From the NCBI GenBank assembly GCA_902787975.1, contig CADAIP010000014.1, forward strand, positions 1-64,000: 64,000 nucleotides of DNA, read 5' to 3'. This DNA is from Oscillospiraceae bacterium. GTDB lineage: Bacteria; Bacillota; Clostridia; Saccharofermentanales; Saccharofermentanaceae. Shown piece after piece: positions 9,174-62,682 of the stretch. Both the position numbers and the translations under genes were made by a program. Below the pieces are notes generated by a model. That model saw only the letters and a program-made list of their open reading frames with translations. It ran no database searches and was not told the origin of the DNA. The number at the start of each line of letters is the position of its first letter. Within the stretch, counting starts at the first letter, position 1.

Positions 9174-9811
9174 GCCCTAGCGTAACTCTCAGCAAGACCG
9201 GTGATTCCAAGATCGAAGTCAAGAAGTCGGTCTTTATCGGAAAGAGCTTTCATATAACATCACCCGAAGAAGCCGCTAATTATCTTGCCGAAGAACGCAA
9301 GAAGTATCCTGATGCAAGGCATCTGTGTTATGCGTGGGTACTGGGCGGTGAAGTGTCCAGACAGAAATCCAGTGACGACGGCGAGCCGCAGGGTACGGCA
9401 GGCCAGCCCTTGTTAGAGCTTTTGACTTCAAACGGTTTTACGGATTCGCTCATCTGTGTCACCAGATATTTCGGAGGAACTCTTCTCGGCAAGGGAGGAC
9501 TTAAGAGAGCTTATACCGACAGCGGCAGAGCGGCTCTTGAAGCAGGGGAGCCGGTTACGTTGATCCAGGCTCTAAAGTGGAGACAGAACTGTTCTTATCC
9601 GGTTTTCGAGATGCTCTCGCGCAAGGCTTCCCAGTCCGGCTGGACCCTCGAAAATGTGGAGTACGGCCAGGATGTTGCATTTGATATCATAGTTCCGGAA
9701 AAGAGCGGGGACGAGCTTAAGAGGGTGTGCCTTGATCTTTCGGGAGGCGCGCTCGTGCTTGGGGATTCAGAGAGCCTTCTTATGATGGGAGAGAAAGCTT
9801 CCGTTTCCTGA
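9170..9811 (+). CDS. YigZ/IMPACT family protein
   Basis: A 213-residue member of the IMPACT/YigZ family, conserved proteins of unclear biochemical role linked to translation or peptide metabolism. Conserved segments are KKSVFIGKSFHI, RHLCYAWVLGG, SSDDGEPQGTAGQPLLE and VTRYFGGTLLGKGGL, together diagnostic of the N-terminal domain. The C-terminal half (about 135-210) corresponds to the ferredoxin-like DUF1949 region. The start is TTG 9170, which overlaps the preceding stop (TTGA); GGGAGAG lies 12 bases upstream. The next ATG comes too late, inside the conserved domain. Confidence 0.9.
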   Translation: MSPSVTLSKTGDSKIEVKKSVFIGKSFHITSPEEAANYLAEERKKYPDARHLCYAWVLGGEVSRQKSSDDGEPQGTAGQPLLELLTSNGFTDSLICVTRYFGGTLLGKGGLKRAYTDSGRAALEAGEPVTLIQALKWRQNCSYPVFEMLSRKASQSGWTLENVEYGQDVAFDIIVPEKSGDELKRVCLDLSGGALVLGDSESLLMMGEKASVS

Positions 9812-9813
9812 CT

Positions 9814-9833
9814 TGCGATTTGGACCAAAATCG
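9814..9833. promoter_or_regulatory. Imperfect palindrome upstream of htrA
   Basis: GCGATTT and AAATCGC arms enclose a short GGACCA centre, between the yigZ stop and the htrA-like start. There is no T tract, so it is not a terminator. It could be an operator or simply chance; there is no further support. Confidence 0.3.
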
Positions 9834-9897
9834 CCCAAAATATGTGAGATGTCGGGGGTAGAATATCACCTGACGGACAAGGGAGACGTGATCACGC

Positions 9898-11157
9898 ATG
9901 GAAAACGACAATAAGGAAATGAACGAAAGACAGGAGCGCATTCCTCAGAACTCAAAGGAAAAGAGCTACCGTCTGACGATATTCGTCTTATCAGTGATCC
10001 TTTTGGCATGCGTAATATTCTCCGGTTTCCAGTCCGTATATATCTTCAAGCTCAACAGCGGCCGCGAAGGAATACTCTCATATACAAGAACTGGTTCGAC
10101 TACCACAGAGACCACCACCGGTGAGGTCCCTGAAGAAACAGAAGATAAGCCTGCCGAAGAACGTCCCGAACCATGGTTCTCACTGGAAGATGCAGCTTAT
10201 GTCCCTTCAGCTGACAAGACCAGGATGACCACCGTGGAGATCGCAAAGCAGGTAAGTCCTGCTACCGTGTCCCTGAAGGTAATAGGTGTTGATAACGATA
10301 CTGAGACGGTCATAGGATCAGGTACAGGATTCATTATCACGGATGACGGATATATCGTTACAAATAAGCATGTTGTCGTTCTCGCTGAAGAGGCGGTAAG
10401 CACATATTACGTAACCGTTGTACTGCCGGGCGACGAACTCCCCGTCAGGGCAGAGGTCGTCGGAAGTGATACGCAGACAGACATTGCGGTCCTTAAGGTG
10501 GATACTGACAAAAAGCTGCCCTGTGTCAAATTGGGCGACTCCGATCTTCTTCAGGCAGGTGAGCTTGCAGTGGTAATCGGAAATGCTCTGGGATCTTTGG
10601 ACGATTCCGTTACGGTCGGAGTAATCTCGGCGCCTTCAAGAGAGATCAACCGCAACGGATACCGTGTTGAGGTTATCCAGACAGATGCTTCGGTAAATCC
10701 GGGAAGCAGCGGCGGACCGCTCATCAATTCATATGGCGAAGTAGTCGGCATCACTAATTCCAAGATAGTAACATCCACATCCGAGAATGTTGGATTTGCA
10801 ATTCCTGTCAATGCCGTTAAAAAGGTAATCGAAGACATCATCAATTACGGCAAGGTGGTAGACCGCCCTTATCTCGGTGTTTCCGTAAGATATGTTCCTG
10901 AAGGTTCTTATTATGGCGCTGAGGGCGGAATCTTCGTTGAAGAGATAGTAATGAACGGACCTGCTTACAATGCCGGGTTCAAACTCGGAGACAAACTCAT
11001 ATCGATGGACGGTGTTGAAATAAAAGAGACCGGTGATATTATTAAGGTGCGCGATTCACATAAGGTCGGAGATACGATAGAAGTCGTAGTCGAACGTGAC
11101 GGCAAAGAAATGACACTGTCACTTACGATAGCAGACAGTGCCAATTTCCCTGATTAA
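9898..11157 (+). CDS. HtrA/DegP-type membrane-anchored serine protease
   Basis: A 419-residue surface quality-control protease. It has a cytoplasmic N-terminus, one membrane helix (about 26-50), a Thr/Glu-rich linker (about 65-95), a trypsin-like domain and a C-terminal PDZ domain (about 320-410). The catalytic triad is visible: His158 (TNKHVV), Asp195 (TDIAVLKV) and Ser271 (NPGSSGGPL; the family usually has GNSGG). PYLGVSVR and AYNAGFKLGDKL are PDZ signatures. ATG 9898 is preceded by AAGGGAGA at a spacing of about 12. A weak -10 (TAGAAT, 9859-9864) may drive it. The following tiny membrane gene is likely co-transcribed. Confidence 0.92.
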   Translation: MENDNKEMNERQERIPQNSKEKSYRLTIFVLSVILLACVIFSGFQSVYIFKLNSGREGILSYTRTGSTTTETTTGEVPEETEDKPAEERPEPWFSLEDAAYVPSADKTRMTTVEIAKQVSPATVSLKVIGVDNDTETVIGSGTGFIITDDGYIVTNKHVVVLAEEAVSTYYVTVVLPGDELPVRAEVVGSDTQTDIAVLKVDTDKKLPCVKLGDSDLLQAGELAVVIGNALGSLDDSVTVGVISAPSREINRNGYRVEVIQTDASVNPGSSGGPLINSYGEVVGITNSKIVTSTSENVGFAIPVNAVKKVIEDIINYGKVVDRPYLGVSVRYVPEGSYYGAEGGIFVEEIVMNGPAYNAGFKLGDKLISMDGVEIKETGDIIKVRDSHKVGDTIEVVVERDGKEMTLSLTIADSANFPD

Positions 11158-11187
11158 GCGCAAACTATATTTAAGGATGTTGATTAT

Positions 11188-11316
11188 ATGAGCAGCGGAA
11201 ACAATAAGAAAATCGGAACCAAGGTTATGGCTTGGATATTGATCGGAGCTATGCTCCTTACTTTTGTTTTCGCGATCGTTGTCGTATTGGTCCAGCAGTT
11301 TTCGATGGGCGCATAA
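11188..11316 (+). CDS. 42-residue single-pass membrane peptide
   Basis: A very short gene with a clear start at ATG 11188 and an AAGGATG site about 10 bases upstream. The product has a basic N-terminus (SSGNNKKIGTK) and one membrane helix of about 22 residues (VMAWILIGAM onward), ending QQFSMGA. The layout, with a lysine-rich head then a K-V-x-A/V-W-I-L-type helix start, resembles DUF4044-type small Firmicute proteins, but the match is by eye. It starts 30 bases after htrA, so it may be co-expressed with the protease. Function unknown. Confidence 0.65.
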   Translation: MSSGNNKKIGTKVMAWILIGAMLLTFVFAIVVVLVQQFSMGA

Positions 11317-11340
11317 GATAAAGGGGATAAACCCTTTACC

Positions 11341-13092
11341 TTACGGTACGTCCTTTATCTGAGCCAATCCGTCTTCATGGAATTCCCAAACATATTCTGA
11401 AGCTTTTCCGCTGATGAACTGCTGATAGTTGTTCATTCTGAGGAAGCTGTTTACCCTGTCATACCATTCGGGGTTGGGCGATTCTGAAATGAAGTAGATT
11501 ATGTAGAATGTTCCGTTGACCTCGATCATGGTCTTATCACCGAGTTTACGGTCAGGCGAGAATATCCATTCAGCCATGGCCCCTGTATATTTAGCCTGAT
11601 ATATCTGGCTGTCGTGAACTATCGCGAGTTCTCCGGCGAGGATATAGTCGTTATAAAGATTTTCTACCTCATTGCAGCTGTCGGCATCTTCGATGTAGTC
11701 GAAGATCTCCTGGCCCAATGCCTGTGTAGCGGCGATGTCGGGCTGCATGTTCTCGTTCAGCTGCTGGTTAGCAGTGATGATGTAGCAGTTGCGAAGATGC
11801 TCTGACATACGGTCTCTTGATACGAATACAAGAATGATGGGGAAGCCGTCTTCGTCAGGGATTATGGTCGCATCGCCGATTTGTCTTGTCTCGTCAAAGA
11901 GCCATCTTCTGAAATCGACATGTGTTACGTCCTCGAAACGGCAGTTTGCGATAAGCGTGGAGTCAGGCTGTGAAAGCGTGTTTGCGGCAACACCTGAAAA
12001 GTACTTGGCAGCGCATGACTCGAACTTTGAAGGATCGCCGTTCATTGCGTCAATGATCTTCTCGGCATGGAGGTTCGCCGTATCGATAAATGCCTGGTCT
12101 CTCTGCTCGTAGGTGATCCTTAAGATCTTGTAACTTACGAGGTCATAGATCGTTCTAGACTGTTTATATGCATGCTCGGCCTGCTCGTCTGAAGCTGAGA
12201 GCTGGATGAGCTTCTCACCCTCTGCGTAGTCTTCCGTGAAGTATTTTTTCGCGAGCGTGTTGATGATTATCTGCTCATCGACCTGGCTTCCGAATACACC
12301 CTTTATGTATGTGTCGAGAGGCACACCGAGTTCATCAGCCTTACCCTTGAGCCAGTTGATGTATGCATTGGCTCTGTCATAGTGAGCCTTCTCAATTACA
12401 AATCCCTGGGCTGTGGCATCGTCGTAGAGGATCTCGATCTTCTGGAGATCCTGTGCAGTTACATATCTGAAGTAATCTCTGTAAGTCTGGAAGTTCTCAT
12501 CGTCAAGATAAGGAGATGAGAGCATTTTTTCCGTGTCCGCAGCGAAAAGGTCGACACCTTCATTCAAGAGCTCATAGTGGTACATGAAACTGAATTCGCC
12601 GCTTGATATGTCTCTTCCGTTAATTGTAAGAGGGCTCTTGAATGATTCATCCATGCCCGTATCAAGTGCAAAAGAAAGGATCGCGATTCCGGCTACCATT
12701 AAGATTCCCAAAAGGACAAAGAGGATACCGGCATTTTTTCTGTGCTTGACCTGCTCAAGTGCATCTTCGTTCCTGTCGAGGTTGATCTCAGTAGGGATCT
12801 CCTCTTCCTTGGGTTCATCCTTGACCTTGCTGTTCTTGCTCTCGGGCAGGGAAGGCAGGTCGGGAACTATTGCTGTATCAGCGGGCTTACCGGTGAGAAG
12901 TTCGGGATCGATCTCTGCAAGATCGTTTAATGTGACACTCTTCTTGGGCTCTTCAACCGGGGAGTCCATGAAATCATTGGTCGGATTGCTCTCTGAAGAA
13001 GCAAGTACCTCTGTCGTTAAAGCATTCTCGTCAACCACCGGCTTACGGGCTTTTTTATCGTCATTTCTATTCTGTCTGTTTTTACCCTTCAT
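11341..13092 (-). CDS. Membrane-anchored SurA/PrsA-like protein
   Basis: A 583-residue protein with a long hydrophilic, acidic cytoplasmic N-terminus (about 1-115), one membrane helix (about 121-143) and a large extracellular helical domain. The first external segment has the pattern of SurA/PrsA N-terminal chaperone domains (NGRDISSGEFSFMYHYEL, then long amphipathic helices). Two later segments (about 310-430 and 490-560) have the length and IGD/LGDKTMI-type endings of parvulin domains but lack convincing active-site motifs. It is probably an extracytoplasmic folding factor, by inference. ATG 13092 is chosen over TTG 13095 because AAGGGGAA lies 8 bases upstream. It converges on htrA. Confidence 0.75.
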   Translation of the reverse strand: MKGKNRQNRNDDKKARKPVVDENALTTEVLASSESNPTNDFMDSPVEEPKKSVTLNDLAEIDPELLTGKPADTAIVPDLPSLPESKNSKVKDEPKEEEIPTEINLDRNEDALEQVKHRKNAGILFVLLGILMVAGIAILSFALDTGMDESFKSPLTINGRDISSGEFSFMYHYELLNEGVDLFAADTEKMLSSPYLDDENFQTYRDYFRYVTAQDLQKIEILYDDATAQGFVIEKAHYDRANAYINWLKGKADELGVPLDTYIKGVFGSQVDEQIIINTLAKKYFTEDYAEGEKLIQLSASDEQAEHAYKQSRTIYDLVSYKILRITYEQRDQAFIDTANLHAEKIIDAMNGDPSKFESCAAKYFSGVAANTLSQPDSTLIANCRFEDVTHVDFRRWLFDETRQIGDATIIPDEDGFPIILVFVSRDRMSEHLRNCYIITANQQLNENMQPDIAATQALGQEIFDYIEDADSCNEVENLYNDYILAGELAIVHDSQIYQAKYTGAMAEWIFSPDRKLGDKTMIEVNGTFYIIYFISESPNPEWYDRVNSFLRMNNYQQFISGKASEYVWEFHEDGLAQIKDVP

Positions 13093-48201: not shown

Positions 48202-49011
48202 ATGAAGATTTTAGTAATCAACTGCGGAAGCTCTTCCGCGAAGTTCCAGCTTTTCGACATCGATACAGGTGATGTCCTCGCTAAGGGTAATGCCGAGAGA
48301 ATCGGAATCGACGGCAAGCTCACATACAAGCCCACAGGCAAGGATGAGTTCGTTTCAACAGAACCCATGCCTGACCACAAAGTTGCTGTAAGAATGATCC
48401 TCGACGCTCTCGTTGACAAGGATCACGGCGTTATCGCCGACGTTTCTGAGATCGCAGCAGTAGGTCACAGAGTCCTCCACGGCGGTAAGTACTATAGCGA
48501 ATCAGTTATCGTTAATGACGACGTTAAGAAAGTTATCAGAGATTGCTTCCCCTTGGGACCTCTCCACAATCCTGCAAACCTCATCGGTATTGAGGCATGC
48601 GAAGATGTTCTTCCTGCAGGCACACCCCAGGTTGCAGTATTCGATACGGCATTCCATCAGACAATGCCCGCAAAGGCTTACACATATGCTCTCCCTTATG
48701 AGATCTCTGAGAAGTACGACATCCGCCGTTACGGTTTCCATGGTACATCTCACCGTTATGTAAGCCACAGAGTTGCTGATTTCCTCGGCAAGAAGTATGA
48801 GGATCTTAAGATCATCACATGCCACCTCGGCAACGGTTCTTCTTTCGCAGCTGTTAAGGACGGCAAGTGCCAGGATACATCTATGGGTCTTACACCTCTT
48901 GCAGGTATCTGCATGGGTACAAGAACAGGTGACATCGATCCCGCTATCGTTCCTTTCCTCATGAAGAATGAGAACCTCACACCTGACGAGATGGATACAC
49001 TGAGATCTTGA
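48202..49011 (+). CDS. ackA: Acetate kinase, N-terminal part of a frameshifted gene
   Basis: Makes ATP from acetyl phosphate and ADP, the second step of the Pta-AckA pathway. The 269 residues cover the first two thirds of Ack[50 protein letters not shown], and [15 protein letters not shown]. The frame follows the family to MDTL (codon ending 49002) and then reads RS-stop. Comparison with family sequence shows about 16-18 residues (usually LNKKSGVLGxSGVSSDFR) missing at this point. ATG 48202 has GGAGT 9 bases upstream. See the C-terminal part for the continuation. Confidence 0.9.
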
Positions 49012-49057
49012 GAAGGCAGCTAAGGAAGGCAACGACAGAGCTCAGCTCGCTCTCGAC

Positions 49058-49345
49058 ATGTTCGCTTACCAGGGCAAGAAGATCATCGGTTCCTATGCAG
49101 CAGCTATGGAAGGCGTTGACGTTATCGTATTCACAGCAGGTATCGGCGAGAACACAGACCACATGAGAAAGGCTATGTGTGAAGGCCTCGAGTTCATGGG
49201 CGTTGAGTTTGACGACGAAGCCAACAACGGTCTCCGCGGCAAGGAAGCTATCATTTCCAAGCCCACATCAAAGGTAACAGTTTGCGTTATTCCTACAAAT
49301 GAGGAACTTGCAATCGCTCAGGAAACAGAGCGTCTCGTAAGATAA
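49058..49345 (+). CDS. ackA: Acetate kinase, C-terminal part of a frameshifted gene
   Basis: The remaining family sequence continues in another frame from about 49003 ([11 protein letters not shown]) through MFAYQGKKIIGSYAAAMEG, VDVIVFTAGIGENTDHMR and the end CVIPTNEELAIAQET. The ATG at 49058 is merely the first in frame; there is no ribosome site for separate translation. The junction ACACT/GAGATC at 49001/49002 is consistent with a deletion of about 53 bases. As it stands, functional acetate kinase cannot be made from this locus. Confidence 0.85.
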   Translation: MFAYQGKKIIGSYAAAMEGVDVIVFTAGIGENTDHMRKAMCEGLEFMGVEFDDEANNGLRGKEAIISKPTSKVTVCVIPTNEELAIAQETERLVR

Positions 49346-51739: not shown

Positions 51740-53047
51740 GTGTATTTGGTTAAGGAATTATATATAGACCCGGGCACCGGCGGAATGCTTTTTACCGTCC
51801 TGTTTGGAATCGTCAGTGTGGCAGTGTTTTCGCTTCGCGCTTTACTTTTGAAACTTAAATTTTCTTCCGGCGGCAAGGGAGCCAAGACAAATAAGAAAAA
51901 GATCCCGATAGCCATATTTACCGATCACAAGAGATATTGGAACGTCTTTGAGCCTCTCCTCAATGAATTTGAGAAGCGCCATCAGAAAGTCGTATATTTC
52001 ACATGTTCCAAGGATGATCCCATTTTCGACAAGAAGTATGAATATATCACCGGAGAATACCTTGGAGAAGGCAATAAGGCTTTTGCCAAGCTTAATCTTC
52101 TGAATGCTTATGTTGTAGTAGCATCCACTCCGAGCCTTGATGTATTCCAGTGGAAGCGCTCTAAGAACGTGGATTACTATATTCATGTCCAGCATGGTGC
52201 AAATGACATATCGATGTACCGTATGTTTGGTACGGACCACTTTGATGCATTGCCTCTGTCGGGTGAATATCAGGTAAAACAGGTAAGACAACTAGAGCAG
52301 ATGCGCGGCATAAAAAAACGCGAGACGCCTCTTGTCGGAATTCCATATATGGATGAAATGAAGAAGAGACTTGAAGCAGCCGGCGATGTCGGTCCTCATG
52401 AGAAAACGGTACTTCTGGCTCCATCATGGGGAAAGAGCGGCATTCTTTCAAGATTCGGCGAGAAACTGATAGATGCACTTATCGATACAGGATATAAGAT
52501 CATCGTAAGACCGCACCCCCAGTCTTTGATCACGGAAAAAGAGATGATGGACAGACTTATGTCCAAATATACCGATGAATCAAAGGTGATCTGGAACAGA
52601 GATAATGACAACTTTGAAGTACTCAGACAGGCAGATATCCTCATATCAGACTTCTCGGGCATTATCTTTGATTTCACGCTGGTCTTCGATAAACCGCTGA
52701 TCTATACAGATACAAAGTATGACATCGGACCTTACGATGCTTACTGGATAGACGAGAAACCATGGACATTCAGGATACTTCCCGAACTTGGTCTTGAACT
52801 TAATGAAGAAAACGTCAGCAACGTTAAAAGTCTCATAGACAGATGCTTAGAAGACCCGTCGTTTGCAAGGGGCCGTGACAAGGCACGCGCTGAGACCTGG
52901 GTGCCTATGGGCGAAGGAACGAAGCGAACTGTTGACTTCATAATGGGAAAATATAATGAGGTAGTTGCCAAAGCTTCCGAAAACAAAAAACAGGAAAAGC
53001 CGGCCAAGAACAAGAGATTCAGGCTTGAACTGAAGAAGGGAGCTTAA
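51740..53047 (+). CDS. TagF-like CDP-glycerol glycerophosphotransferase family protein
   Basis: A 435-residue protein with one N-terminal membrane helix (about 13-36) and a GT-B-like domain of the CDP-glycerol glycerophosphotransferase family, which builds or primes poly(glycerol phosphate) of teichoic acids. Visible family features are HVQHGANDISMY (HGxxx near 152), TVLLAPSWG, IVRPHPQSL and ADILISDFSGIIFDFTLVFDKPLIY. The last is diagnostic. The start is GTG 51740 (MYLVKELY) with AGGAAA 10 bases upstream; a TTG 6 bases later is possible. It lies 6 bases before the YidC-sulfatase gene. Confidence 0.85.
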   Translation: MYLVKELYIDPGTGGMLFTVLFGIVSVAVFSLRALLLKLKFSSGGKGAKTNKKKIPIAIFTDHKRYWNVFEPLLNEFEKRHQKVVYFTCSKDDPIFDKKYEYITGEYLGEGNKAFAKLNLLNAYVVVASTPSLDVFQWKRSKNVDYYIHVQHGANDISMYRMFGTDHFDALPLSGEYQVKQVRQLEQMRGIKKRETPLVGIPYMDEMKKRLEAAGDVGPHEKTVLLAPSWGKSGILSRFGEKLIDALIDTGYKIIVRPHPQSLITEKEMMDRLMSKYTDESKVIWNRDNDNFEVLRQADILISDFSGIIFDFTLVFDKPLIYTDTKYDIGPYDAYWIDEKPWTFRILPELGLELNEENVSNVKSLIDRCLEDPSFARGRDKARAETWVPMGEGTKRTVDFIMGKYNEVVAKASENKKQEKPAKNKRFRLELKKGA

Positions 53048-53053
53048 AGAAAC

Positions 53054-55687
53054 ATGTCTTTTCTTTCTTTTATCAATTCATTGTTCATAGCTCCTCTTAA
53101 ACTTTTGTTTGAGCTGTTCTATTACTATGCTTATAAATTTACCGACAGTGCGGGATTATCCATTGTTGTAATCAGCCTTATCGTTAATTTCCTGGTATTG
53201 CCCCTGTATAAACGGGCAGATGAGATACAGGCGGAAGAACGTGAGATCCAGGCAACGATGGCACCGATGATCAAGCATCTTAAAAAGACATTCAAAGGTG
53301 ATGAACGTTTCATGATGCTTCAGGAATACTACCGCATCAACAATTACAAGCCGATTTATGCTTTGAAGAGTACTGTCTCACTCCTTTTACAGATTCCGTT
53401 CTTTATTGCGGCTTATGATCTTTTGTCAGGATTGAAGGTCTTACAGGGAGAGTCATTCCTTTTCATGACTGATCTTGCCAAAGAAGATGCAATGTTTTCC
53501 ATCGGAAGTTTCCCTGTAAATGTCCTTCCGATACTTATGACACTGATTAATATCGTATCCGGAATCATCTATACCAAAGGACATTCTTTAAGAGAAAAGA
53601 TCCAGGTATATGGTCTTGCCGCCGTCTTCCTCGTGCTGCTTTACCGTTCACCTTCAGGTCTTGTTTTCTACTGGCTCCTGAATAACGTATTCTCCCTTTG
53701 TAAGAACATCATTACAAGTTTAATGAAGCCTAAGAATAAAGCGGAAACCAAAGCAGAATCAAAGCCACAGAAAGCGGTTCCGGCATTAGGAAAGAAGAAC
53801 TTTTCTCTGATAATGCTTTCGTGTTCGGCACTTGCTGTCCTTACAGGCATTATGATTCCTTCTGATGTTATAGTCCAGAATCCTGCGGAGATGACTAATA
53901 TGTTCAGTTCAGATCCGCACAACCCACTTCTTTATCTTGTGATCAGTGCATTAATAGCCATAGGCGCATTTGTGATATGGGTTCCTGTATTTACATATCT
54001 TTCAAGTGAGAAAGCGAAAAATGCAATTGCTTATATCCTTCCGGGTCTGACAGTATCAGGCATAGTTAATTACATCGGATTCAACAAGAATTTCGGAATG
54101 GTATCCAACAAACTTACCTTCGACTATAAGATGGAATATGGATTGGGTCAGATCCTCTTGAATCTTCTGGTTGATGCAGTGATTTGTGCAGTTTTGGTTT
54201 TTGTAGTGAAGAAGTGGCGAAAGTTCATCAGACCTTTGCTTCTGATTTCCCTTCTGGTTGTATCCTTCCTTTCAGTTATGCGAATAGCTGCGATAGCTAT
54301 CTTTGCCACCGACAACAATTACTATTACGCTAACACGGAAGAAGATGTCAGCGTTCCTCTTTCTACTACAGGTCAGAACGTGGTAATACTGATGATCGAT
54401 AAAATGAACGGTTCCTGTATTCCGTACATTTTTAACGAACGTCCTGACGTTGCCGCCCAGTTTGACGGTTTTACTTATTATCCGAATACGGTTTCTTTTG
54501 GTAAATATACAAACACCGGATCAGCATCTGTTTTCGGCGGTTACGATTACAGACCGCAGGAAATGAACAGGCGTTCGGATACGCTTTTGAAGGATAAACA
54601 AAATGAGGCACTGCTTGTGCTTCCAGTTATCTTTTCGAAAAATGGCTGGAATGTAACGATAGGAGATCCTACTTATGCGAATTACCAGTGGAGACCTGAT
54701 GTCAGTATCTACGATCAATACGAAGGCATAACCGCATACAACATGTCCGGTGTGTTCAATAACAGAATGCCTACTCTTGTAAATGCCGGTGAAGATCTTG
54801 AGACAAGACTTAACCGCAATATGTTCTGCTACGGAATAATGAAATCCCTGCCTTACGCATTGCAGCCGGGCTTTTACACGGATGGAGAGTATTTCAATCT
54901 GAATCTTGTTAACTATTCATATGCCGGAAACTCCCTGCATACACAACAGGGTCTGTTTGAGTGGCACATTCAGGAATATGCAGTCCTTGATGCGTTGTGT
55001 GACGTGACAGATGTAACATCTGATGACACTAACTGTTTCTTTGTTTTATCAAACGGTTCGACACATGACATTTGTCTTCTCCAGGAACCGGATTATGTTC
55101 CTGCGGTCAGCATTGATAACACGGAATATGATGCTGCCCACGAGGACCGTTTTACTGTTGACGGAGTAACAATGCATATGGACAGAAATTATCTTTCCTA
55201 TGCGGCTTATCAATGCAGCATGGAAACCTGCATAGCTCTCGGAAACTGGTTTGATTATCTTCGTGAAAACGGATTATACGATAATACAAGGATCATAATA
55301 GTCGCCGATCACGGCAACAGTTTGAAGCAGTTCGATGAACTTTTGGTTGATGATATTGATTTCGATGCCGAGGGCGTTAACCCTATTCTTATGGTTAAGG
55401 ATTTCAACAGTACGGGATTTACCGTAAATACGGAATTCATGACCAATGCAGATACTCCGTCTCTGGCACTTAACGGAATCGTAGATGATCCTGTTAATCC
55501 GTTTACAAATAATCCTATCTTCCAGGATTGCAAATCTAACGAGCTCTATCTTTACATTTCTGAAGAAGTCAATACCGGCACAAACAATGGTACTCAGTTT
55601 GAGGATCCTGAAGCCTATTGGGTTTCAGTCCACGATAATATCTACGATGACGAAAACTGGGCTCTCTGCCCTGATGGACCAAATTGA
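53054..55687 (+). CDS. YidC/Oxa1-like domain fused to a sulfatase-family domain
   Basis: An 877-residue two-part protein. Residues 1-225 match a YidC/Oxa1 insertase: GLSIVVISLIVNFLVLPL, the cytoplasmic hairpin with MAPMIKHLKKTFKGDERFMMLQEYY, then IPFFIAAYDLL and SGLVFYWLLNNVFS. The arginine normally conserved in the first groove helix is Asn45. Five further helices (about 250-415) lead to an extracellular alkaline-phosphatase-superfamily domain (about 440-870). Its metal residues fit Asp449 (VILMIDKMN), a Thr nucleophile around 486-488 (KYTNTGSAS), His671 (STHD) and Asp752-His753 (VADHGNS), as in lipoteichoic-acid synthase-type enzymes. AGGGAG precedes ATG 53054. It is coupled to the TagF-like gene. 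Confidence 0.83.
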   Translation: MSFLSFINSLFIAPLKLLFELFYYYAYKFTDSAGLSIVVISLIVNFLVLPLYKRADEIQAEEREIQATMAPMIKHLKKTFKGDERFMMLQEYYRINNYKPIYALKSTVSLLLQIPFFIAAYDLLSGLKVLQGESFLFMTDLAKEDAMFSIGSFPVNVLPILMTLINIVSGIIYTKGHSLREKIQVYGLAAVFLVLLYRSPSGLVFYWLLNNVFSLCKNIITSLMKPKNKAETKAESKPQKAVPALGKKNFSLIMLSCSALAVLTGIMIPSDVIVQNPAEMTNMFSSDPHNPLLYLVISALIAIGAFVIWVPVFTYLSSEKAKNAIAYILPGLTVSGIVNYIGFNKNFGMVSNKLTFDYKMEYGLGQILLNLLVDAVICAVLVFVVKKWRKFIRPLLLISLLVVSFLSVMRIAAIAIFATDNNYYYANTEEDVSVPLSTTGQNVVILMIDKMNGSCIPYIFNERPDVAAQFDGFTYYPNTVSFGKYTNTGSASVFGGYDYRPQEMNRRSDTLLKDKQNEALLVLPVIFSKNGWNVTIGDPTYANYQWRPDVSIYDQYEGITAYNMSGVFNNRMPTLVNAGEDLETRLNRNMFCYGIMKSLPYALQPGFYTDGEYFNLNLVNYSYAGNSLHTQQGLFEWHIQEYAVLDALCDVTDVTSDDTNCFFVLSNGSTHDICLLQEPDYVPAVSIDNTEYDAAHEDRFTVDGVTMHMDRNYLSYAAYQCSMETCIALGNWFDYLRENGLYDNTRIIIVADHGNSLKQFDELLVDDIDFDAEGVNPILMVKDFNSTGFTVNTEFMTNADTPSLALNGIVDDPVNPFTNNPIFQDCKSNELYLYISEEVNTGTNNGTQFEDPEAYWVSVHDNIYDDENWALCPDGPN

Positions 55688-60153: not shown

Positions 60154-62682
60154 ATGTTTAAAAGACGTCCTGAGTATTTTGCGGTTGCCGTAATAGGCGG
60201 GCTTCTCGCAATAGCGGCTTCCGTGATAACGGTGATGAGCCTTGATACCGGAATAACGGAACCCGACAAGAAGACTTTGAAAACAGCGGACGATATTGTT
60301 GCCCGCGCAGGTTTACTGACTGCCTGCACCGATGATGAGATCAAGATCGCCAAGGCGCGCGTGGAAGATGGTCTTGTATCGTGCGGTGACTATGTCATTT
60401 CCGTAATGACTTCACCCGAATATCTTCTTACCGGTGTTTCCGATGAGAGATTTGCGCAGGACTTAAGTTATGTAATTTACGGTGAGACCAGACAGGATGA
60501 AGTTCAATACATCCTTGATGATCTTAAGAGCACGACAAGAGCTGCTGCCATAGACAGAGCCATTTCTTCTGAAAACAGCAATCTTAAGGCTTCATCAACA
60601 CCTACAAGAAAGGGCTCCGTGATCTCAAATGTCAGCCTTGCATCAACCATTGATTCTCCCGAACAATACACTGTTGGAATTAGAGAAGCGGCAGGTTCAT
60701 ATTCGGCTACCGGAGATGAAGTCAGAACGGACTTTTTCGTTGACGGTTCACTCTATTACGGATATCTGAAGTTTAACGATAACAACGGCAATTCCGATTA
60801 CCGCGAGTTTGTTCTGTCATGGGATACAGCAGACTGCGCTCCCGGAAGACATGAAGTTTACGCTCTCATCAGAAGTTCAGACGGAAGAGGAACCGTAATC
60901 TCGGGAGGAGAGATAACGATCCCTGAGAAAGTAACCATCTATCCGAATTCTGTTGCCGAGGGACTCATACCCAGCGGAAACAATAACGCATGGTACATGA
61001 TCGATTGCGGTGAAGATGACTGCTACATCGATTTTGCAGGACTTACCGATGACATCAGAGTAACTCTTTACGACCTCAAGGGAAATATTATCGGAAGCAA
61101 CGAAAACCCCGGCATTCCTTACGCGATGCTCAGAGGCAAAAAACAGGATACTGCTGCTGTTGCAGAAGAGACTGGCATTGCAGGAGTTTCCAACTGCTAT
61201 TATGTCTGCGTAAGCAGAACGGGTTCGGGCAGTGACATCGAGAAAGACATCGACTTTACGATGATACAGTCCAGAGAGTGTGCTTATTTTGACGGCAGTT
61301 ATATGGCTGTTACAGGTGACGACGGCAATGGAAGACTCAGACTTACAGACAAGAACATGGTCACTTATGATGTCGAGAGAAAGAAGGCCGGAATCATTCC
61401 GATCAACGGAGCACTGTCCGGTTGCTACATCAACGATTCCACACCTGACAAGTTCCTGAATATCTATCCTGACTTCGATTACTTTAACCGTAATTACGCT
61501 TACTATATGGACAGCTCAAAGGACATCGCGATCAGATGTACGCCTCTTGAAGGATATTCTGCAAGCGTAACGATCAAGGCTAATTCCAATGGAGTTGAAA
61601 CGGTATTGGATCAGGGCCAGCTCTACACCATACCTTCGGGCGAGACTGTAATCACATGTACTGTTACGGGTTTTGACGGTACATCCGACAGCTATTATTT
61701 CTTCCTGCTCAACGGTGATGATGAGGGTGATTTCAGAGAAAATACACTTACTAAATTCCCGACAAGTTACTTCAGCGGATTGTGGCTTATCCACAGCCTC
61801 AAGCCCAACTATATATTTACGCCATACTACACGAATCTGTCGTTTGATACGGCAGTCGTTGCAGAAGACAGCAAGGCAAGAAGCCTCATCCAGTATTCGT
61901 CTTATCCGGCTTTTGTTAAGCCCAACAGCGAAGTATACGATAAACCTGACTGGATGATGTGCAAGACTGATGTAGTAAGTTACTTCTTGGATCCGAGAAA
62001 TTTCCTCACACCTGAGAAGATCTTCGCATTTGAGCTCCTTGGGTTTGACCCTAATGTCCACACAGTGGATGGTGTAAGAGAGATCATCAGAGGTTCGTTC
62101 ATGGACGGCGATCCTGAGTACGATTATGCACAGATAATCTACGAAGCCGGTCAGAATGCGGGCGTATCGCCTTACTTCCTCGCGAGCAGGATAATCCAGG
62201 AGATGGGATACTCCGGTGAATCCGCATTGTCCAGAGGTGATCTTACAGGTTACGAAGGTTACTACAACTTCTATAATATCGGTGCTTATGCTACGACTGA
62301 GCCGGGTGGTGCGGTTATCAACGGCGCGAAGTATGCACAGTGGGGAAGAGACTGGGAAGGCCAGGAAATAACGGATACAGAAGCAACATATCTCCTACCG
62401 TGGACTTCTGTTGAAAGAGCGATCATGGGCGGTGCAATCTGGATTGCTACAGGCTATATCGATAAGGGCCAGAATACTCTTTATTTCCAGAAGTTTGACG
62501 TGCTTGATGATGGTACGGACAAATATGATCACCAGTATGCACAGAACATCATGATGGCATATTCTGAAGGTATGAGATATTACAGAAGTTACGATTCAAT
62601 AGGCATGACTGATGCAGGTTTTGAATTTGTCATTCCTGTATACAACAACATGCCGGAAGCTTACGGGTATCTGCCGGAATGA
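60154..62682 (+). CDS. Cell-wall N-acetylglucosaminidase with N-terminal DUF4214-like region
   Basis: An 842-residue secreted or anchored protein. A membrane helix (about 10-31) is followed by a DUF4214-like helical segment (about 45-145, with MTSPEYLLTGVSDERFAQDLSYVIYGE), a beta-rich middle of several sandwich-like domains (about 165-560), and a C-terminal glucosaminidase domain (about 610-835). The last shows NAGVSPYFLASRIIQEMGYSG, whose Glu is the likely acid catalyst, and GYYNFYNIGAY, typical of clostridial LytD/Acm-type peptidoglycan hydrolases. It starts 3 bases after the YfbR-like gene and overlaps the next gene by 4 bases. Confidence 0.82.
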   Translation: MFKRRPEYFAVAVIGGLLAIAASVITVMSLDTGITEPDKKTLKTADDIVARAGLLTACTDDEIKIAKARVEDGLVSCGDYVISVMTSPEYLLTGVSDERFAQDLSYVIYGETRQDEVQYILDDLKSTTRAAAIDRAISSENSNLKASSTPTRKGSVISNVSLASTIDSPEQYTVGIREAAGSYSATGDEVRTDFFVDGSLYYGYLKFNDNNGNSDYREFVLSWDTADCAPGRHEVYALIRSSDGRGTVISGGEITIPEKVTIYPNSVAEGLIPSGNNNAWYMIDCGEDDCYIDFAGLTDDIRVTLYDLKGNIIGSNENPGIPYAMLRGKKQDTAAVAEETGIAGVSNCYYVCVSRTGSGSDIEKDIDFTMIQSRECAYFDGSYMAVTGDDGNGRLRLTDKNMVTYDVERKKAGIIPINGALSGCYINDSTPDKFLNIYPDFDYFNRNYAYYMDSSKDIAIRCTPLEGYSASVTIKANSNGVETVLDQGQLYTIPSGETVITCTVTGFDGTSDSYYFFLLNGDDEGDFRENTLTKFPTSYFSGLWLIHSLKPNYIFTPYYTNLSFDTAVVAEDSKARSLIQYSSYPAFVKPNSEVYDKPDWMMCKTDVVSYFLDPRNFLTPEKIFAFELLGFDPNVHTVDGVREIIRGSFMDGDPEYDYAQIIYEAGQNAGVSPYFLASRIIQEMGYSGESALSRGDLTGYEGYYNFYNIGAYATTEPGGAVINGAKYAQWGRDWEGQEITDTEATYLLPWTSVERAIMGGAIWIATGYIDKGQNTLYFQKFDVLDDGTDKYDHQYAQNIMMAYSEGMRYYRSYDSIGMTDAGFEFVIPVYNNMPEAYGYLPE

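Follow-up and report, generated by a model that had tools for sequence, protein, structure and literature searches.

A YidC/Oxa1 module fused to an LtaS/EptA-type extracellular enzyme domain, and its probable pairing with a PF04464 transferase in gut bacteria

What is a membrane-insertase fold doing on the same polypeptide as an extracellular enzyme? The question is raised by one open reading frame in the window, the whole stretch of 64,000 nucleotides analysed here (contig CADAIP010000014.1, from an Oscillospiraceae bacterium of a Saccharofermentans-like genus). The fused enzyme probably serves, in a group of gut bacteria, to attach small phosphorus-containing groups such as aminoethylphosphonate (AEP) and phosphocholine to the cell surface. 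The protein and its parts are as follows.

53054 to 55687, + strand: YidC-AP (alkaline-phosphatase superfamily) fusion protein, 877 aa (open reading frame, Pfam and NCBIfam matches, AlphaFold2).
53054 to 53728, + strand: YidC/Oxa1 module, residues 1-225, with an amphipathic helix, five transmembrane helices and the cytosolic C1 hairpin (PF02096; Z 18.4 to 3wo7; 58% mean pairwise identity).
53789 to 54343, + strand: five-helix membrane region of LtaS/EptA/PbgA type, residues 246-430 (AlphaFold2 helices; PbgA 6xlp alignment; 29% identity).
54368 to 55684, + strand: extracellular AP-superfamily domain, residues 439-877 (PF00884; Z 17-20 to AP-superfamily structures).

An earlier note on this DNA had described a YidC fold joined through five extra helices to an extracellular AP-superfamily domain, and Pfam, AlphaFold2 and topology agree on that layout. 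In the domain search that the note proposed, PF02096 (residues 34-221, E 6.3e-22, 78.7 bits against a cut-off of 35) and PF00884 (residues 441-759, E 1.9e-6, 27.9 bits against 25) both exceed their curated cut-offs, as does the YidC model TIGR03592. AlphaFold2 folded the whole fusion, with 26 homologs, at a mean pLDDT of 81, placing the extra helices at 247-275, 291-316, 319-344, 364-387 and 389-425, with a YidC fold at 1-225 and an AP fold at 439-877; the layout therefore passed both refuting checks that the note had named. From loop charge and hydropathy, read by the positive-inside pattern, C1, the 206-249 linker and the last short loop lie inside, and the AP domain is predicted outside.

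Matches to the AP domain dominated a full-length structure search, which made a separate model and search of the YidC part necessary. Folded alone (pLDDT 82), this part matched Bacillus halodurans YidC 3wo7 with Z 18.4 over 208 residues at 3.3 Å and Escherichia coli YidC 6al2 with Z 17.8, while structures from outside the YidC/Oxa1 family reached at most Z 7; as modelled, residues 1-225 are a true YidC/Oxa1 fold. The AP part gave Z values of about 17-20 to phosphonate monoester hydrolases, sulfatases, LtaS/LtaP, EptC (Z 18.0 for its domain) and PbgA. The alignment with PbgA 6xlp spans residues 237-877, thus including the five-helix region, with an rmsd of 15 Å over that length, and therefore the relative placing of the five-helix and AP parts is not reproduced.

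Regarding the active site, the metal residues of the phosphatase part had been thought intact, and they hold up across the family: five predicted catalytic positions are identical in all 91 unique homologs.

54398 to 54400, + strand: Asp449, predicted metal ligand (invariant, 91/91).
54509 to 54511, + strand: Thr486, predicted nucleophile, without a formylglycine CxPxR signature (invariant, 91/91).
55064 to 55066, + strand: His671, predicted active-site residue (invariant, 91/91).
55307 to 55312, + strand: Asp752-His753, predicted metal ligands (invariant, 91/91).

Thr486 is likely the nucleophile, as read from these alignments, and a threonine nucleophile is also found in LtaS and EptA. The formylglycine signature C/S-x-P-x-R is absent from the fusions, although a phosphonate monoester hydrolase is a top structural match. 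Because of the threonine and the missing signature, the fusion does not count as a sulfatase proper, and formylglycine sulfatase or phosphonate monoester hydrolase activity was ruled out on the same grounds. Among the NCBIfam matches of the fusion at E up to 1, there is no LtaS model, and similarity of predicted folds does not by itself identify the substrate of the AP domain.

The immediate neighbour of the fusion gene gives a further lead, as the earlier note had seen in pointing to a translationally close TagF-like gene; it ends 6 nt upstream of the fusion ATG.

51740 to 53047, + strand: partner gene, a PF04464 (TagF/TarF-like) transferase of 435 aa with an N-terminal hydrophobic 'YIDPGTGGM' segment (PF04464, E 1.3e-13).
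53036 to 53042, + strand: AAGGGAG, which resembles a Shine-Dalgarno site and falls within the 3' end of the partner gene (sequence).

The short gap and the AAGGGAG motif within the partner make translational coupling of the two genes probable; many other partner-fusion pairs overlap by 1-4 nt. The partner exceeds the PF04464 cut-off (51.1 bits against 22.1) and falls far short of the TarF/TarL equivalog (16.8 bits against 550); it is a putative cytosolic, membrane-anchored transferase of CMP/CDP-linked head groups. The idea that the fusion always neighbours a CDP-glycerol transferase was too strong, since a same-strand PF04464 gene within 300 bp accompanies 44 of 83 fusions. Tandem fusion copies appear to share one PF04464 gene, and the partner is absent at three loci of one genome (L127, L128 and L132). 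In the genome of the window, the three PF04464 matches each lie beside a fusion, and the PF00884 matches are the four fusions alone.

The same parts also occur in other arrangements, as found in the swapped fusions below.

L162, 6791 to 8695, and L184, 9048 to 11180: YidC-PF04464 swapped fusions, a separate YidC lineage beside an unfused AP-superfamily gene (Pfam).

In the first of these (genome G477), a PF00884 membrane protein is followed by the YidC-PF04464 fusion, with both domains above cut-off (PF02096, E 8e-31; PF04464, E 3e-11), and the gene directly after it encodes an 88-aa membrane protein of its own, whose 'YIDP' stretch resembles the partner's N-terminal segment. A search of the phylum sample for YidC-PF04464 proteins returned one further full fusion (L184, genome G455), which lies in a glycan cluster and shares 4 nt with an AP-superfamily gene. 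Meanwhile, genome G433 (L107) carries an AEP operon and, after it, a stand-alone PF04464 gene plus two PF00884 membrane proteins, with no YidC; its PF04464 protein is 36-37% identical to the PF04464 part of the swapped fusions. That YidC, PF04464 and AP enzymes turn up side by side in varying fusions suggests that the three are likely one functional unit.

Co-divergence points the same way. In a mirror-tree comparison, partner divergence correlated with that of the YidC domain at r 0.915 and with that of the AP domain at r 0.843, with partial r of 0.68 and 0.18, respectively, and YidC ahead in 99% of subsamples, a difference that is modest and from which relatedness is not fully removed. From these observations, it is rather probable that the YidC module couples physically or functionally to the PF04464 enzyme, and we hold with similar confidence that fusion and PF04464 protein form a surface-transferase unit. 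The earlier suggestion that the YidC part may handle a lipid-linked polymer or a partner protein for the enzyme domain is thereby upheld as to a handling role for the enzyme and its PF04464 partner, from the 44/83 adjacency, the co-divergence and the swapped fusion; its lipid half is taken up below as a tentative reading.

As to the chemistry, genes for CTP-dependent activation of AEP, phosphocholine or glycerol-phosphate-like head groups recur beside the fusions. The AEP set comprises PepM with a cytidylyltransferase domain, the phosphonopyruvate decarboxylase Ppd and the AEP transaminase PhnW (TIGR02320, TIGR03297 and TIGR03301 above cut-off), together with a 600-aa NTP-transferase/aminotransferase protein, PntC-like in layout, and an Fe-alcohol dehydrogenase. 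PepM/Ppd/PhnW or the dehydrogenase are found beside fusions at L083, L084 and L130 and in arrays of the genus (L038, L039, L050, L061-L063, L069, L070), a PntC-like gene at L129, LicA/LicC-like genes (LicC-like plus choline kinase) at L124, L125 and L131, and a CTP-transferase gene at L133. Outside the genus, 9 of 13 loci have activation genes near the fusion; counting only phosphonate and choline-kinase genes no more than 6 kb away, the figure is just 16 of 54 loci. The window locus has no activation genes within 6 kb, its neighbours being trkA/trkH and pcrA. Elsewhere in the same genome, an AEP cluster (NTP-transferase, PhnW, PepM-CTP, Ppd) sits in a glycan cluster about 28 kb from a fusion on contig C9, and on contig C11 a fusion-partner pair faces a BCCT transporter, a LicC-like gene and a LicC/choline-kinase gene.

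PepM is present in 31 of 35 genomes of the genus, in 0 of 24 others of the order and in 16 of 398 in the phylum sample, where all three fusion genomes carry it (hypergeometric p about 5e-5, or 1e-3 without the genome of the window). One genome has PepM without the fusion (G021) and another fusions without PepM (G019). For surface phosphonates in general, nucleotidyl activation is the rule (PMC6697681).

Some features of these neighbourhoods stand apart. Next to the swapped fusion of L162, a short ORF (9465-9896) carries only a PntC-like N-terminal stretch and is an apparent remnant. At L133, a divergent YidC fusion of 787 aa (9414-11777) has a C-terminal half below the PF00884 cut-off with a weak LtaS match (E 0.001), and the CTP-transferase gene sits between it and its PF04464 partner. 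In the window itself, an acetate-kinase-like gene appears to be split into two ORFs (48202-49345; 269 and 95 aa) where the relative L072 has a single 398-aa ORF, either through an assembly error or because the gene is broken, and an 842-aa protein (60154-62682), with an N-terminal hydrophobic segment and a sub-threshold Cadherin-like match as its sole Pfam hit, keeps synteny with the fusion in seven loci.

Taken with the active site, these neighbourhoods make us lean, by a little, towards an LtaS/EptA-type transferase that would decorate surface polymers with CMP/CDP-activated phosphono or phospho groups, with the YidC module as the link between the cytosolic enzyme and the exterior. Counting against this reading are the window locus with its lack of activation genes, the low figure of 16 in 54 loci, the genomes G019 and G021, and the three loci that have no partner. 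Whether most members use AEP- or choline-type rather than polyglycerol-phosphate chemistry is evenly balanced in our judgement. In the proposed sequence of events, head groups such as AEP and phosphocholine would be activated in the cytosol as CMP-AEP or CDP-choline, for which the genes are present in the genome of the window and beside fusions elsewhere. The membrane-anchored PF04464 enzyme, with donors presumably of that type, would then detach the head group from its nucleotide and load it onto a lipid, or onto a carrier linked to one, in the inner leaflet. The YidC module would take over this product, letting its polar head cross the membrane through the open groove, or would dock both enzymes; the coupling part of this step is backed by the swapped fusion and the co-divergence. 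Finally, Thr486 of the extracellular domain would accept the head group and hand it to a surface glycan or teichoic-like polymer, as the fold and the invariant residues suggest. Acceptors or head groups would differ from one paralog to another.

How far the YidC module takes part in transport is the most tentative point. In vitro, phospholipids are scrambled by purified insertases of the Oxa1 family, YidC among them, along a path that simulations put in the groove (PMC10491306, preprint); a lipid-passing role is therefore possible, and this scrambling may be incidental. Lipid flipping by the module is offered as a minority view, and the same doubt attaches to its fuller form, in which an Oxa1 fold might have been recruited as a dedicated translocator of head groups, moving an AEP-, choline- or glycerol-phosphate-lipid from the PF04464 enzyme through the hydrophilic groove to the fused transferase. 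Slightly less probable still is docking without any transport, where the module would be a platform holding the PF04464 enzyme beside the AP enzyme. The swapped fusion and the co-divergence require physical coupling alone, but a complete five-helix YidC fold with a conserved polar groove exceeds what a docking peg needs.

The surface-transferase reading also has to be weighed against a polymerase of the LTA or teichoic type, in which the PF04464 gene and the fusion would make a polyglycerol-phosphate-like polymer with the YidC module as an accessory. The AP domain and five-helix layout are LtaS-like, PF04464 is the CDP-glycerol glycerophosphotransferase family, and the divergent fusion of L133, with its intervening CTP-transferase, shows the weak C-terminal LtaS match. 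However, the partner stays far under the TarF/TarL equivalog cut-offs, the fusion matches no LtaS model, and among the activation genes nearby, those of AEP or choline type predominate over glycerol-type ones, leaving the polymerase with about one chance in five.

A further possibility is that the module still works as an insertase, and here the groove residue is central.

53186 to 53188, + strand: codon of Asn45, at the groove arginine position (E. coli R366; alignment).

The earlier note had seen that the conserved groove arginine is replaced by Asn45, which indeed aligns with E. coli R366. Among 104 fusions, this position is N in 84, S in 17, Q in 2 and T in 1, never Arg or Lys; the positively charged groove residue used to define YidC/Oxa1 membership is thus lacking, while the polar groove residues of the module are invariant. 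The position has been called strictly conserved and positively charged (PMC8920935). As an observation in its own right, rnpA-yidC-jag housekeeping YidCs from several genomes of another family contrast with that claim, having N in L136 and L143 and Y in L137, L138, L139 and L142 (that of L135 is truncated at the position); the housekeeping YidC of the window genome has R. The E. coli mutant R366A is able to complement, and neutral replacements of R366 are defective only in combination with an apolar or almost apolar residue 517 (PMC8920935); the fusion residue aligned with 517 is the aromatic W207. In Streptococcus mutans YidC2, R73 is essential although a Trp occupies the position matching 517, and the effect of the groove arginine is therefore context-dependent. 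The view that the domain may no longer insert proteins does not follow from Asn45, because the other-family housekeeping YidCs lack the charge too; with these and the complementation by R366A, a missing groove arginine was rejected as proof of lost function.

A dedicated insertase or chaperone, acting mainly on its own AP domain, the five helices or the partner, would be in keeping with the full YidC fold, the invariant polar groove, strong purifying selection and the dispensability of the groove arginine in some YidCs (the other-family housekeeping proteins; PMC8920935). Against it, a separate housekeeping YidC is present in 12 of 13 genomes checked, the exception (G507) being 84% complete, and the co-divergence with PF04464 and the swapped YidC-PF04464 fusion point to enzymes, not to general insertion. 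In addition, LtaS, EptA and proteins of the PbgA type are not known to require an insertase fused to them, and we regard this reading as unlikely, on a par with the polymerase. The YidC domains of the fusions form one clade (support 0.80), about 20% identical to housekeeping YidC and encoded outside the rnpA-yidC-jag locus.

An artefact of chance domain matches or chimeric assembly, hinted at by a PF00884 score barely above cut-off, is practically negligible, as the architecture recurs in 91 unique homologs drawn from many genomes (the same layout in independent members excluding a chimera), structure comparison confirms both folds and dN/dS is about 0.1 over all parts. Purifying selection is strongest on the YidC domain, and mean pairwise identity across the family is 58% for the YidC module, 46% for the AP domain and 29% for the five-helix region. 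Gene conversion as the cause of this YidC conservation was rejected, because synonymous sites are equally saturated in all three parts.

The fusion is a paralogous family. It occurs in 32 of 35 genomes of the window's genus, with as many as 18 matched stretches in one genome and frequent tandem arrangements, and was not found in 24 genomes from other families of the order. In the phylum sample, it is present in at least 3 of 398 genomes, a lower bound as two candidates were scored per genome; another family has it in 9 of 200 genera, and the order of a third lineage in one of 189 genomes. Between the two families, the YidC domains of the fusions are 54% identical and the housekeeping YidCs 26%, which suggests horizontal transfer, strong constraint, or both. 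In a cultured carrier (loci L036/L055), the partner shares 93% and the YidC domain 94% identity with its counterpart in the window. Carriage by plasmids or phages and a role as a defence system were set aside, as plasmid and phage collections and PADLOC, respectively, gave no match.

The fusion, its paralog expansion and the swapped form were not found described in the open literature, including searches for YidC with LTA synthase, PEP mutase and CDP-glycerol/sulfatase, which is not proof of absence. If the proposal is true, an insertase fold takes part in cell-surface construction, and natural swapped fusions and paralogs are available to dissect this role; on the minority translocator reading, members of the Oxa1 superfamily would also transport lipids physiologically, apart from protein insertion. 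The proposal also supplies candidate enzymes for late surface phosphonate tailoring, after CMP-AEP, and with a cultured rumen bacterium and liposomes one could test directly whether the lipid scrambling seen for Oxa1-family proteins is physiological.

Compared with known systems, the gene content of several fusion neighbourhoods matches the PntC/PepM phosphonate tailoring and Lic1 phosphocholine pathways; a word search of the main text of PMC6697681 gave no mention of sulfatase-type proteins. LtaS and LtaP (PDB 2w5q, 4uoo and 4uop matched) have, like the fusion, five transmembrane helices and an extracellular AP domain with a Thr nucleophile, but no YidC module, while the fusion reaches no LtaS equivalog and its neighbours suggest AEP or choline head groups. 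The phosphoethanolamine transferases EptA/EptC/MCR and PbgA/YejM share the layout (EptC, Z 18.0; PbgA 6xlp, 237-877), but lack the YidC module and PF04464 partner and act in a Gram-negative lipid A/LPS context. EptA takes its zwitterionic head group off a lipid and places it on a glycolipid of the surface, and a reaction of this kind is what is proposed for the fusion. With the YidC/SpoIIIJ/Oxa1 insertases, the fusion shares the complete fold and the PF02096 and TIGR03592 scores above cut-off, differing in the attached enzyme, a groove that is never Arg or Lys and a locus outside rnpA-yidC-jag. The partner belongs to PF04464 as do TagF/TarF/TarL, but is divergent, with an 'IDPGTG' N-terminal membrane segment and scores below the TarF/TarL cut-offs. 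MprF, an aminoacyl-phospholipid synthase fused to a flippase, is an earlier example of a head-group enzyme that carries a lipid-flipping module in the same protein, although its folds are unrelated, its enzyme is cytosolic and its flippase is not of Oxa1 type. Each part of the fusion comes from a known family and the proposed reaction is of a known type. A task for the Oxa1 fold other than protein insertion would, if proven, be new.
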